Shown: positions 18,101-22,275 of the stretch, in pieces
Position numbering within the stretch: the first letter of the stretch is position 1
How the letters are laid out: each line of letters opens with the position of its first letter
From: Saccharibacillus kuerlensis DSM 22868
GTDB lineage: Bacteria > Bacillota > Bacilli > Paenibacillales > Paenibacillaceae
DNA length: 64,000 nucleotides
Direction: 5' to 3'
Assembly (NCBI RefSeq): GCF_000378145.1
Contig: NZ_KB899284.1
Location: forward strand, 62,001-126,000
The notes under the pieces: generated by a model
What the model was told of the DNA's origin: nothing
The model's database searches: none
Seen by the model: only the letters and a program-made list of their open reading frames with translations
Translations under genes and position numbers: made by a program

Positions 18101-19186
18101 ATGATACCCTTTCGACACGATCACGTAGGTAGCTTTTTACGTCCGGCGAACTTAAGCCAGGCGCGCGAACAATATAAATCAGGCAGCATCACATACGAGG
18201 AATTAAGAGCCGTAGAAGATCAGGAGATTATTCGGATCATCGAAAAGCAGAAGGAAAACGGCGTGCTTGCCGTTACGGATGGCGAGCTGCGCAGAAGCTG
18301 GTGGCATTTTGATTTCTTGGGCGGTCTGGATGGCGTTGAGCTGTATGAGCAGATCGACGGTCCGCAGTTCCACAACATGCAAACGCGTAAAGGCGGGATT
18401 CGCGTTATTGGCAAAGTCGATTTCTCGACGCATCCTTTCGTGGAAGATTTCAAATTCGTTAAGCAGCATGCAGGCGATACCGTAGCGAAACAGACCATAC
18501 CGAGTCCAAACATGCTTCTATATCGTTTGGAGAACGGCGCCAATGTCTATACGGACCGCGAGGCGTTTCTTCTGGACACGATTGCGGCGTATCAAAAAGC
18601 GATTCAAGCCTTCTATGATGCGGGATGTCGATATCTGCAGCTGGACGATACCGCTTGGGCAGACCTCTTCTCGGAAGCGGGTCACGATAAGATGCGCGCC
18701 AAAGGTCTGGAACCGGCGGAAGAGCTGCAAACGATGCAGCGTATGATTAACGAATCTTTGGCTCATAAGCCGGCGGATTTAGTGGTGACGATGCATATCT
18801 GCCGCGGTAACTATAAATCGAACTATTTCTCAACAGGCGGCTATGATTATGCTTCCGAGGTGATCTTTGGCGGTCTAGACGTAGACGGATTATTTTTGGA
18901 ATTCGATGACGAGCGCTCGGGTAGTTTCGAGTCGTTAAAGCACGTGAATCGAAAAGATTTGAAAATCGTGCTGGGTCTGCTCACATCCAAAACCGGCGAG
19001 TTAGAGGACAAAGAACAAATCAAAGCCCGGATCGCGGAGGCGGCAACCTATGTCCCTCTTGAGCAGCTTTGCTTGAGCCCTCAGTGCGGATTTTCGTCGA
19101 CGGAAGAAGGCAATATTCTGACGGAAGAACAACAATGGCGTAAGCTTCGTTACGTGAAGGAAATTGCAGACGAAGTGTGGGGTTAA
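18101..19186 (+). CDS. MetE C-terminal-like methyltransferase (YxjG/YxjH type)
   Basis: A 361-residue protein matching the catalytic C-terminal half of cobalamin-independent methionine synthase, as in Bacillus YxjG/YxjH. Zinc ligands are visible: H232 and C234 (MHICRGN), a Glu near 267, and C329 (SPQCGF). N-terminal HVGSFLRP is the family opening. Such proteins move a methyl group to homocysteine or a related thiol, but the folate-binding N-terminal half of MetE is absent. AAGGAG precedes the ATG. No S-box or T-box was seen in its leader. A structured repeat element follows its stop codon. Confidence 0.85.
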   Translation: MIPFRHDHVGSFLRPANLSQAREQYKSGSITYEELRAVEDQEIIRIIEKQKENGVLAVTDGELRRSWWHFDFLGGLDGVELYEQIDGPQFHNMQTRKGGIRVIGKVDFSTHPFVEDFKFVKQHAGDTVAKQTIPSPNMLLYRLENGANVYTDREAFLLDTIAAYQKAIQAFYDAGCRYLQLDDTAWADLFSEAGHDKMRAKGLEPAEELQTMQRMINESLAHKPADLVVTMHICRGNYKSNYFSTGGYDYASEVIFGGLDVDGLFLEFDDERSGSFESLKHVNRKDLKIVLGLLTSKTGELEDKEQIKARIAEAATYVPLEQLCLSPQCGFSSTEEGNILTEEQQWRKLRYVKEIADEVWG

Positions 19187-19188
19187 AA

Positions 19189-19281
19189 TCGTCTCAAATT
19201 AAGAGTAGGATTACGTTCGTCTGAAACGCGCATGCTTCTAGGGCGATTCAGATGGACGTAACCTTTCAGCTGATGAGACGA
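19189..19281 (+). repeat. Structured repeat element, copy A
   Basis: A 93-base element between the MetE-like and aldehyde dehydrogenase genes. Closing stem TCGTCTCA/TGAGACGA (19189-19196, 19274-19281). Inside it a long hairpin pairs 19208-19225 with 19247-19263 (17 pairs, one bulged A), topped by CGC/GCG. Copy B at 22031-22140 has the same architecture, with several changed base pairs preserved by compensating changes. Conserved unpaired bases include AGTA on the 5' side and TTCA-CTGA on the 3' side. It is not a simple terminator, since no T-run follows. A structured RNA or an extragenic palindrome is likely. Confidence 0.65.
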
Positions 19282-19316
19282 CCGGTAAGCCATCTAAATC
19301 ACGGAGGGGATATCAA

Positions 19317-20807
19317 ATGACCATTCAAGCACACCAAGAGGCCGTTACCGTTGAAGCGTTGATTAACGGCCAGAACGTAAAGTCCCTTTCCCAGTCAGCC
19401 AAAGAAAATCCGGCCAACCCGAGCGAGGTCGTGGGTTATTTCCCTGTTACAACGAAGGAACAAGCTGTCGAAGCAATCGAAGCGGCGGCGAATGCCTTTA
19501 AAACGTGGAAGAAAACGAGCATCGAGGAACGCGTGACGAGAATGCGAAAAGCGATCGAGAAGATTAGAGCAGCCGAAAATGAGATTGTGCATTTGTTGTC
19601 CAGAGAGCACGGCAAGCCGCTGTATGATGCGCACGGCGAAATTTATGTGTCGTTGATGTGGATGGAGTTTACTTGCAATGAAGCGGCATCGGCTCTCCAG
19701 GAAGAGATCCAAGAGCATGAGAAGGGGAAAACGATTCTTTCTTACGATCCGATTGGCGTAGTGGCGGCGATTAGTCCTTGGAATTATCCGATTGCATTGT
19801 CTACGATCAAGATCGCTCCTGCCCTGCTGGCGGGCAACACGATTGTGCTTAAACCGAGTCCGTATGCGCCGCTTGCAGCGGCGAAGGTAGCTGAGATTAT
19901 CGCGAGCGAGTTCCCGGCCGGCGTCATCAATGTCGTTCATGGCGATGCGGAAGTGGGCGTTGAACTGACGACGAATCCTCATGTGACGAAAATCGCTTTT
20001 ACAGGCGGAACCGAAACGGCCAAGCATATTATCAAAGCAGCTTCGGACACGATCAAGGATATGACGCTGGAGCTTGGCGGCAACGATGCGGCGATCTTCT
20101 TGGAGAGCTTTGACGTGAACGATGAGCGCGCGATGCGCCGGATCGTCGTTTCCAATTTCTTGACAACAGGTCAGATCTGCATGATCGCCAAACGCGTATA
20201 TGTACACCGTTCGATCTATGATCAGTTTGTGGAAAAATATATCGAGGCGGCAAATCGTTGGATTCGCATCGGTGATCCATTCGATCCCAATACGACGGTA
20301 GGCCCGGTCAATAACTTGAAACAGAAAGATTACGTGCTGAGTCTGGTCGAAGATGCGAAGCAGCGCGGGGCCAAGGTCATCCCTCTCGGCCAAATTTTGG
20401 ACCAGAAGGTGTTTGACCAAGGATACTACCTGCAGCCTACGCTTGTTCTGGGCTGCGATGCGCATGATCGAATTGTAGTGGAAGAACAGTTCGGCCCTAC
20501 GGTTCCGATTCTGCCATTTGACGATGAAGAGCAGGTGATTGGTCTCCACAATGAAAGTATCTACGGACTGACGAGTTCGGTGTGGGGGAAAGAAGAGGAT
20601 GCGATCCTCGTTGCGCGTCAGCTCGAAGCCGGAACAACCATGATCAATACGGCTGCCGTGCAGGGGTTGGACGTTCGTTTCCCGTTCGGCGGCTTCAAGC
20701 AATCCGGGATCGGCCGTGAATACGGTACGGAAGGCATCCGCACGTATACGGAACAGCATGTAATCAATATTCCGAAGATGCTGGATCTTCCTTATATTCC
20801 GGAATAA
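19317..20807 (+). CDS. NAD(P)-dependent aldehyde dehydrogenase
   Basis: A 496-residue aldehyde dehydrogenase that oxidises an aldehyde to the acid. Visible signatures: SPWNYP (153-158), cofactor loop FTGGTETAKHI, catalytic-base motif LELGGND with E252, and the nucleophile C288 in GQICMIAKR. The family most like succinate-semialdehyde or benzaldehyde dehydrogenases, but substrate cannot be assigned. GGAGGGGA precedes the ATG. The structured repeat element lies in its leader, ending 35 bases before the start. A strong terminator follows. Confidence 0.9.
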   Translation: MTIQAHQEAVTVEALINGQNVKSLSQSAKENPANPSEVVGYFPVTTKEQAVEAIEAAANAFKTWKKTSIEERVTRMRKAIEKIRAAENEIVHLLSREHGKPLYDAHGEIYVSLMWMEFTCNEAASALQEEIQEHEKGKTILSYDPIGVVAAISPWNYPIALSTIKIAPALLAGNTIVLKPSPYAPLAAAKVAEIIASEFPAGVINVVHGDAEVGVELTTNPHVTKIAFTGGTETAKHIIKAASDTIKDMTLELGGNDAAIFLESFDVNDERAMRRIVVSNFLTTGQICMIAKRVYVHRSIYDQFVEKYIEAANRWIRIGDPFDPNTTVGPVNNLKQKDYVLSLVEDAKQRGAKVIPLGQILDQKVFDQGYYLQPTLVLGCDAHDRIVVEEQFGPTVPILPFDDEEQVIGLHNESIYGLTSSVWGKEEDAILVARQLEAGTTMINTAAVQGLDVRFPFGGFKQSGIGREYGTEGIRTYTEQHVINIPKMLDLPYIPE

Positions 20808-20863
20808 ACGGTAGAGAAGTTGTTCGCAAATCCTGCTGTTGACGGCGGGTACAGGCTCTAACT

Positions 20864-20911
20864 AAACGCCCTGTTTGCTGATTCTCAAGAATCGGCAAAC
20901 AGGGCGTTTTT
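20864..20911 (+). terminator. Terminator after the aldehyde dehydrogenase
   Basis: A long stem (AAACGCCCTGTTTGC pairing with GCAAACAGGGCGTTT) with a second GATTC/GAATC helix at the tip, followed by TT. Confidence 0.88.
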
Positions 20912-21039
20912 CTAAATGAGAGATGCGGAAGTGAAAATTGTGAAGAATAAGGAAGGCGAGCGGATCTTGAGCGCAGATGTATCAAACGGTGAAGATTAAT
21001 CAGTGGAGCCGTATCATCAGTAATAGCGGGAAATCATGA

Positions 21040-22014
21040 CTACCCTTTTCGGTTAACGTTTTTTTGCTTAAAAGAGTCTGCCATGTACACCCATCCGATT
21101 AATCCAAACAAAACAAATCCAAACGCATGCAGCGATCCGTAAATGGGAATGAAATCAAGTATGGTGAAGTCGAATCTATTTTTCAGCAGCGGATAGAACA
21201 TGGAAACGACGACAACGCTGTAGAAGGCCAGGCAGGAAAGAACTAAAAAGAAGGCTGCCTTTTTGTGTAATGGATTTCGCTTCAAGTAAGTAAGGAGATA
21301 CGTGGTGTAAATCGCAATATTACAAGCAAACAAAGTGACACCGATGTACTCGATTGGCTTGGAGAAAATCATGCCGATCGCGATTAAGATGGGTCCGATA
21401 ATATCGATGGCAACGACCCACGGATACCAGCTTTTCTTCGTCATGATCCGTCCCAGTATCCCAATAAAAATCGGAACGATCGCAGAAGAAAAATGAAAGT
21501 GAACCGAACTTAATGCATGGGTGTCAGGATTAGCTTGGAAGAGGTTCAATTGATATTGATATAAGGTGAACCAAATGCCCCCGATAAAAAAGTAAATGAG
21601 TCCCGCGCCAATCGCAATCTCCGCTATTTTTCCCTTATGGTCCCCTATAGTCGCTATCCCATACATACCAAGCAGCAAGGTGAGCAATAGCCAACCAAGG
21701 GAGAGTGCGCCCGGTATAGACGTGCCTTCTAACCCCCAAATTTTACTGCTCATCACAGAGACTAGAACAAGAAGTGCTGCGGGGAATTGAAACCCTTTCA
21801 TAGCCGTATAGATTGTCCGTTGATGGGTACTCTTCTCGTCATAGTCCAACAATAAAATGACTAAAGGTACAATAACAAAAGCCGCAAACAGCAGAAATTT
21901 TTCAACAAGTTCAAATTGGAAGTAATCAAGAGAAAATATGAGAATGATCACGATTCCACCTGGAAGCATGGGTGCGAATAATGGTCTCATCATTTTTTTC
22001 TGGAAACGATGCAT
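21040..22014 (-). CDS. YndJ-like integral membrane protein
   Basis: A 324-residue membrane protein with about nine helices and a very basic tail. HFHFSSAIVPIFIGILGR near the middle resembles the HFHF segment of Bacillus YndJ-type proteins; this likeness is from memory. Several His and Trp residues near membrane borders are conserved-looking. No enzymatic motif is evident. AGGAG precedes its ATG. The gene's 5' flank carries copy B of the structured repeat. Confidence 0.6.
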   Translation of the reverse strand: MHRFQKKMMRPLFAPMLPGGIVIILIFSLDYFQFELVEKFLLFAAFVIVPLVILLLDYDEKSTHQRTIYTAMKGFQFPAALLVLVSVMSSKIWGLEGTSIPGALSLGWLLLTLLLGMYGIATIGDHKGKIAEIAIGAGLIYFFIGGIWFTLYQYQLNLFQANPDTHALSSVHFHFSSAIVPIFIGILGRIMTKKSWYPWVVAIDIIGPILIAIGMIFSKPIEYIGVTLFACNIAIYTTYLLTYLKRNPLHKKAAFFLVLSCLAFYSVVVVSMFYPLLKNRFDFTILDFIPIYGSLHAFGFVLFGLIGWVYMADSFKQKNVNRKG

Positions 22015-22030
22015 GGCAGCTCCTTTCTAG

Positions 22031-22140
22031 CTAGCAGCTTGTCTCACTTAAATAGTAGGATTTTGTTTGGCTGAAACGTACATGGTTTAAGTGCGATTCA
22101 GACAGGCGAAACCGTTCATCTGATTGAGACAAGCTGCTAG
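22031..22140 (+). repeat. Structured repeat element, copy B
   Basis: Same architecture as the element at 19189-19281. The closing stem is longer here, a perfect 16 bp (22031-22046 with 22125-22140). The inner hairpin pairs GGATTTTGTTTGGCTGAA with TTCAGACAGGCGAAACC with one mismatch, several G-T pairs and the same bulged A, and the apical CGT/GCG helix is kept. The outer stem sequence differs from copy A although both pair, which argues for selection on structure. It lies between the 5' ends of the YndJ-like gene and the 3' end of the marR gene. Confidence 0.65.
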
Positions 22141-22275
22141 GCTTCGCGTTATACGTACTCCTATCAGGTTGTGAAGCATTCTTTGTCATAGATAGGCGCT
22201 GCTCTTTTAATAGTTTAACATAGTTATTTGCCGATCGACCTGTCATACATCTGTACCATAAGTAAAAGCACCGCA

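Follow-up and report, generated by a model that had tools for sequence, protein, structure and literature searches.

A dispersed palindromic repeat with a conserved fold in one clade of Saccharibacillus

Two related elements and their surroundings

The window, which is the whole stretch of 64,000 nucleotides from Saccharibacillus kuerlensis DSM 22868 that was analyzed, contains two copies of a palindromic element, listed in Table 1 with their flanking features. The gene upstream of copy 1 has its closest named relatives in Saccharibacillus species, with 93-97% identity at the protein level, and a similar range is found in some Paenibacillus (96% in P. dauci and 95% in P. wulumuqiensis); the product of the downstream gene presumably resembles an aldehyde dehydrogenase. 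In five Paenibacillus loci (L039, L046, L053, L057 and L078) a different palindromic insertion is located in the same gap 3′ of the match to the 361-aa gene; these gaps measure 131-192 bp, and the insertion carries TTTACAC or a similar sequence at one end and GTGTAAA at the other where these could be read, the motif being present in four of the five loci.

Table 1. Positions in the window of the two copies of the repeat and of the features next to them
Feature	Positions	Strand	Basis
Flanking gene upstream of copy 1, 361 aa; outside the element	18101..19186	+	Relatives in Bacillales
Copy 1 of the repeat	19186..19285	+	Limits by alignment to the model; covariance-model match 19180-19293, 81.6 bits; row in the 72-copy alignment
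Apical hairpin of copy 1, CTGAAACG...CGATTCAG	19221..19251	+	Core pattern match
Flanking gene downstream of copy 1, 496 aa; outside the element	19317..20807	+	Gene call
Left target-site duplication of copy 2, CTAG	22031..22034	.	Flank test
Copy 2 of the repeat, 102 bp, inverted ends CAGCTTGTCTCA / TGAGACAAGCTG	22035..22136	+	Covariance-model match 22028-22144, 104.1 bits; limits from the flank test
Apical hairpin of copy 2	22071..22101	+	Core pattern match
Right target-site duplication of copy 2, CTAG	22137..22140	.	Flank test

Both elements had been reported in a sequence-only reading of the window, and they were located where that reading had placed them. The common fold that it had described is also found, since the left loop AGTAGGATT, the right loop TTCA-CTGA, the bulged A and the apical helix of the two copies align; likewise, neither copy is followed by a T-run, and a scan of the whole window with Rfam gave no family at or above its gathering score, in agreement with the lack of a T-run and of a riboswitch match noted there. 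Two occurrences of the core pattern CTGAAACG-N{8,24}-CGATTCAG were counted in the window, vs. a mean of 0.00 in 100 shuffles. The folding energy of the + strand is -42.8 kcal/mol for copy 1 and -51.5 kcal/mol for copy 2; compared with 200 dinucleotide shuffles, this corresponds to z values of -6.47 and -8.83, respectively, while those of the - strand are -4.68 and -6.92, with no shuffle as good in any of the four cases.

Two statements of the earlier reading had to be modified. The outer stem of copy 2 is indeed longer than that of copy 1, but the CTAG on each side, which had been included in its eight additional bases, is a target-site duplication and lies outside the element; in copy 1 the ends are eroded and a clear target duplication is not readable. 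Moreover, the two copies are real, but they are not alone: the repeat occupies at least 12 distinct places in its own genome (the weakest of those listed scoring 38.7 bits) and more in related genomes.

Distribution, ends and insertion sites of the repeat

The strict core pattern gave matches in 11 of the 16 genomes of the genus and yielded 30 loci. Of these, 27 were aligned together with locus L037 in a 28-copy alignment, leaving out L008 and L023, where the rest of the element is missing, and L012, whose right side has diverged. The covariance model made from these 28 copies matches ten of the 16 genomes at E up to 0.01, one of them (G013) by a single weak match. In Paenibacillaceae, whose search the sequence-only reading had proposed, the model matches 10 of 295 genomes, all in one of 19 genera, and in the order it matches 9 of 392 genomes, all in one of 49 genera; these two runs used stricter filters, with which weak matches may be lost. 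The identity of rnc to that of the host splits the genus into ten genomes with at least 97% and six with 81-82%, and the former are exactly the ten genomes matched by the model. Among the genomes sampled, the repeat is confined to one clade of Saccharibacillus. The number of matches per genome is at least 22 in the own genome of the window and reaches at least 137; both strands of the palindrome are counted and up to 150 candidates were scored per genome, hence these are not copy numbers. In the stretches examined, 153 matches correspond to 81 places, including 38 in genome G011, 19 in G006 and 12 in the own genome. Of these places, the nine weaker were left out of a 72-copy alignment, which extends down to a score of 76.3 bits.

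The element is 102 bp long in 59 of the 72 copies (range 100-108), and in this common form the length alone limits any reading frame to 34 codons; longer forms, of 125-127 and 140 nt between the end motifs, are also present. The ends are inverted, with the consensus TA(C/G)CTTG..., and form helix 1, which consists of 12 pairs with 91.1% of cells paired. Beyond them, the flanking 4-mers are identical on both sides in 19 of 72 copies, vs. 7.0 on average in shuffles (p 5e-5, the lowest value that 20,000 shuffles can give); 12 copies have exact 4-bp duplications other than CTAG. Agreement is strong at flank positions 1 and 4 (57 and 53 of 72 copies, p 5e-5 each) and weakly over shuffle at positions 2 and 3 (45 and 51 copies, p 0.06 and 0.18), whereas base pairing at the four positions does not exceed the shuffle level. 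Since the flanks agree yet pair no better than shuffles, the palindrome ends there and a 4-bp target-site duplication begins, its consensus being CTAG. A duplication one base wider gave a weak signal (p 0.07 for columns 3/116 and p 0.03 for columns 8/121) and was left uncounted; a 2-bp TA target duplication was rejected, as the flank test gave 4 bp. In L025, L016, L028 and L209 neighbouring copies abut, with a common junction such as GGTACTAGTACC, as if one copy had entered the target duplication of the other.

Ten copies were set against possible empty sites, four of which proved usable, with flanks 89-98% identical, while the other six had gaps or rearranged sequence there. In L205:7793, compared with L167, CCAG is present at both flanks and once at the empty site, and the same holds for CTAT in L192:11192, compared with L200. 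L207:4405 has ATAG at both flanks, and the sequence past ATAG departs from the empty site in L172; in L200:9911 the flanks are GTAG and TCAG, vs. GCAG at the empty site in L192, which we read as a decayed duplication. The site of copy 1 lacks the element in several relatives, e.g., L032 and L042, and contains it in L037, while L035 and L036 may hold remnants of copy 1 at the same site; in L037, two stem pairs are changed on both sides with respect to the window, GTCTCA/TGAGAC becoming GTTTCA/TGAAAC and G·U becoming T·A. Another copy, between rnc and smc, is present in 3 of the 16 genomes of the genus and was not seen in 13, and it too has two pairs changed on both sides between G000 and G011. 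These comparisons at the copy 1 and rnc-smc sites were made by eye. The relatives compared have not retained the gene neighbourhood in which copy 2 lies.

According to codon-scored gene calls made in this analysis, 77 of the 81 places are intergenic, three overlap a called gene and one is at an edge. The intergenic places lie between tandem genes in 46 cases, divergent genes in 20 and convergent genes in 11, which by plain comparison is close to the composition of intergenic DNA by length (59% tandem, 19% divergent and 22% convergent). Between tandem genes, 21 places are sense and 25 antisense to the genes (p 0.66). A bias toward one replication strand was considered and rejected, the GC skew placing 39 copies with the G-rich strand and 38 against it, with four unclear. 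Recurring neighbour genes, another check that had been proposed, were not observed: the 77 intergenic places have 147 distinct neighbours, with four alike pairs within one genome (E below 1e-10). This random orientation, together with neighbours that do not recur, is unlike a riboswitch.

An outward TTGACA, resembling a -35 box, is found at the right end of 28 of 72 copies (columns 106-111 of the 72-copy alignment) and at the left end of 13 (columns 13-18), and the copies having it include one subfamily of the repeat; by their sequence, such ends could make hybrid promoters.

Fold, covariation and strand bias

In the inner fold, the outer stem leads through an asymmetric internal loop to a long stem, which contains a bulged base and is topped by one apical hairpin; the loop of this hairpin is ACGCTTTAG in 34 of 72 copies. 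In some copies a second apical hairpin, GAGACTTCGTAC...GTACGAAATCTC, is found beside the first or replaces it, the loops of the two being similar, and a branched fold was computed for L253 and L164. Three copies (L199:8323, L204:17840 and L167:19396) have no apical hairpin; one such copy, folded alone, showed a slight advantage over shuffles (z -1.56, 12 of 200 as good). Subfamilies differ in the inner part of the outer stem, which reads GTCAAC, GACCAA, GTCTCA, GACCG, GCTTCG and others; each of columns 15-19 in this stem has 0 or 1 broken pairs among the 72 copies.

When one structure is imposed on the 72 copies, 93.9% of cells pair, vs. 80.7% for shuffles, 25 of 34 pairs are changed on both sides (shuffle, 15.8), and the cells changed on both sides number 285 (shuffle, 82.5); the covariation score is 0.416, compared with 0.171. 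None of 500 shuffles reached any of five measures, and sliding the partners as a control lowered the paired cells to 30-39%. The alignment was fitted to a model containing much of the same structure, which favours the result, and the shuffles ignore the relatedness of the copies. Compensatory changes in the repeat are thus strongly supported, and the claim that base pairs differ between copies while pairing is kept, which had been made on two copies, extends to the family.

The mismatches retained in the stems are informative on the strand. Counting all cells of the 72 copies, 202 are G·U and 51 A·C, in 23 and 8 columns, respectively, with columns 40-43 accounting for 117 of the 202 G·U cells; in the 28-copy alignment, where the strand had been assigned from the core letters and the pairs were those of RNAalifold, G·U and A·C stand at 80:9, in 15 columns vs. 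4. Shared ancestry of the copies was handled by counting each derived state once per close cluster: the inner pairs then show 21 changes to G·U vs. 5 to A·C (p 0.0025), and the terminal five pairs 5 vs. 5. A tighter cluster cut-off gave 7:2 for the inner pairs (p 0.18) and 3:2 for the terminal ones, and a looser one 33:12 (p 0.0025) and 12:9; when clusters were formed by single linkage, the ratios were 32:13 for the inner pairs and 8:19 for the ends, the latter leaning in the opposite direction. With these same clusters, stems change more than loops, i.e., 181 of 2434 sites (0.074) vs. 84 of 1512 (0.056). The excess of G·U over A·C inside the stems, and its absence at the terminal pairs, indicate that the fold of one strand seems to be constrained, in the inner part only. 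This strand is most likely constrained as RNA rather than as single-stranded DNA, since the element shows no link to the direction of replication.

Origin of the repeat and relation to known families

The repeat is very probably a family of small, non-autonomous, MITE-like DNA transposons of 102 bp with inverted ends and a 4-bp duplication, and the two window copies are members of this dispersed family of mobile palindromes with a conserved fold. Indeed, it is short, it has terminal inverted repeats and a target-site duplication of fixed length, and it is dispersed, with presence at a site in some genomes and absence in others. The most likely reason why pairing is kept, and why the inner stems admit G·U more often than A·C, would be co-transcription of the copies with adjacent genes, a compactly folded RNA strand being either acceptable to the host or of help in the spread of the element. 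The sequence-only reading had held that genome-wide copies with random neighbours and target-site duplications, but no compensatory changes, would indicate a plain mobile palindrome: the copies, the non-recurring neighbours and the duplications are all found here, but compensatory changes are present as well. Against the MITE-like reading stand the outer-stem covariation between subfamilies, which exceeds the needs of plain transposon ends, the lack of an autonomous element with matching ends in the searches described below, the yield of four clean empty sites from ten comparisons, one of them (L200:9911) with differing flanking 4-mers, and the eroded ends of copy 1. A two-layered element, in which the outermost pairs would be kept as DNA for the transposase, while the modular inner domain would be kept as an RNA fold of one strand whose transcript aids spread or has been recruited by the host, is a possibility that we put forward tentatively.

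Palindromes are known to be corrected by template switching, and compensatory changes could arise in this way, by quasi-palindrome correction and without selection, in an inert palindrome. The outer stem, which covaries with almost no broken pairs in columns 15-19, agrees with such a process, as does the lack of significance of the G·U excess at the tightest clustering; however, template switching should be symmetrical with respect to the strands and give no G·U excess, contrary to the ratios found for the inner pairs in close clusters, set against those of the terminal pairs, and for the 28-copy alignment. This origin is therefore regarded as rather unlikely. Much less probable is a hairpin repeat moved as single-stranded DNA, of the REP/RAYT, IS200/IS605 or attC type, whose + strand fold would be recognized as DNA. 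It would account for the favoured fold of one strand, G·T being tolerated in DNA hairpins too, and for the many copies of the GACCAA type having GTAG at the foot; yet the inverted ends on both sides, the even distribution on the G-rich strand and the real 4-bp duplications, which single-strand insertion by HUH enzymes or tyrosine recombinases is not known to produce, argue against it, and the G of GTAG is part of the duplicated target.

The strong covariation, the strand-specific tolerance of G·U, the slower change of loops than of stems within clusters and the recurrent apical loop would all suit a cis-regulatory, riboswitch-like RNA, located in 5′ or 3′ UTRs and sensing a signal or controlling expression, as the earlier reading implied. 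Such a role has found no support here and is highly improbable: the copies are dispersed without bias in orientation and without recurring neighbours, they have target-site duplications and empty sites, they occur in one clade of one genus among the genomes sampled, and no Rfam match was obtained in the window. Even at E up to 5, the five matches to Rfam on five loci included none on the element.

As for the mobility of the MITE-like repeat, we infer that a transposase acts in trans. Duplications of 4-bp YTAG/YTAR targets are a feature of some IS701 and IS5 elements; an IS701-type transposase was rejected as the mover, since DDE_5 (PF13546) is found in none of the 16 genomes of the genus. Among DDE_Tnp_1 elements, at 26 loci in eight genomes, no matching ends were seen and short motif matches were isolated; of the 14 pairs compared, one could not be aligned and several left the end of the element undefined. 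In G005, the genome scanned for ends, the end motif has 51 matches, which resolve into 19 pairs of repeat size and 13 single matches. Of the latter, six were inspected and correspond to two long forms, two fragments and two sites without an element, none being autonomous. Overall, no autonomous element with the ends of the repeat was found in the two transposase families and the one genome searched. A search for unpaired ends in 1.41 Mb gave five isolated ends, apparently from copies that are broken or have diverged. In L237, L238 and L240, transposase genes lie between copies of a terminator-like hairpin, as if an element entered terminators and repeated them.

MITE-like elements are a known kind, and several families described in other bacteria resemble the repeat in part. 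The BOX elements of Streptococcus pneumoniae are described as short dispersed repeats, likely MITEs, with a modular organization, variable middle modules and a high degree of folding as RNA (PMC3049150); the likeness noted here is one of modular behaviour and folding. In the Saccharibacillus repeat, by contrast, copies vary in having none, one or two apical hairpins, and insertion duplicates a 4-mer target with the consensus CTAG. RUP, ERIC and Correia/NEMIS, in the description available, are about 100-200 bp long, with inverted ends, a terminal TA, target duplication and stable stem-loop transcripts; compared by description, they share with our repeat the size, the ends, the duplication and the TA, but RUP enters sites holding a TA dinucleotide, whereas the Saccharibacillus repeat has a 4-bp duplication and a different host (PMC2229807). 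The MITE-like bcr1, confined to the Bacillus cereus group, with an average of 39 and a maximum of 130 copies and often found in transcripts, is similar in being restricted to one bacterial group in dozens of copies, but the mobility of bcr elements is linked to a TTTAT motif, vs. CTAG for our repeat (PMC6542083, PMC3446304). GTAG-tagged REPs are also intergenic palindromes, in which stem changes are complementary and G·T pairs common; unlike the 102-bp Saccharibacillus repeat, with its two inverted ends and target duplication, they are 20-40 bp long and have the tag at one end (PMC3733652). On tag and size, assignment to the REP/RAYT class was accordingly rejected.

No earlier description of the repeat was found in Rfam or in the top-listed open papers, and a term search of the S. 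brassicae genome paper returned no passage on such repeats; thus, the Saccharibacillus repeat appears to be a newly described family. Many intergenic hairpins in one clade of Saccharibacillus are in this way explained as one mobile family, which is also a warning that covariation by itself does not make a riboswitch candidate. The repeat provides a comparative system in which ends kept at the DNA level and a strand-specific inner fold can be separated on the basis of the G·U:A·C mismatch ratio.
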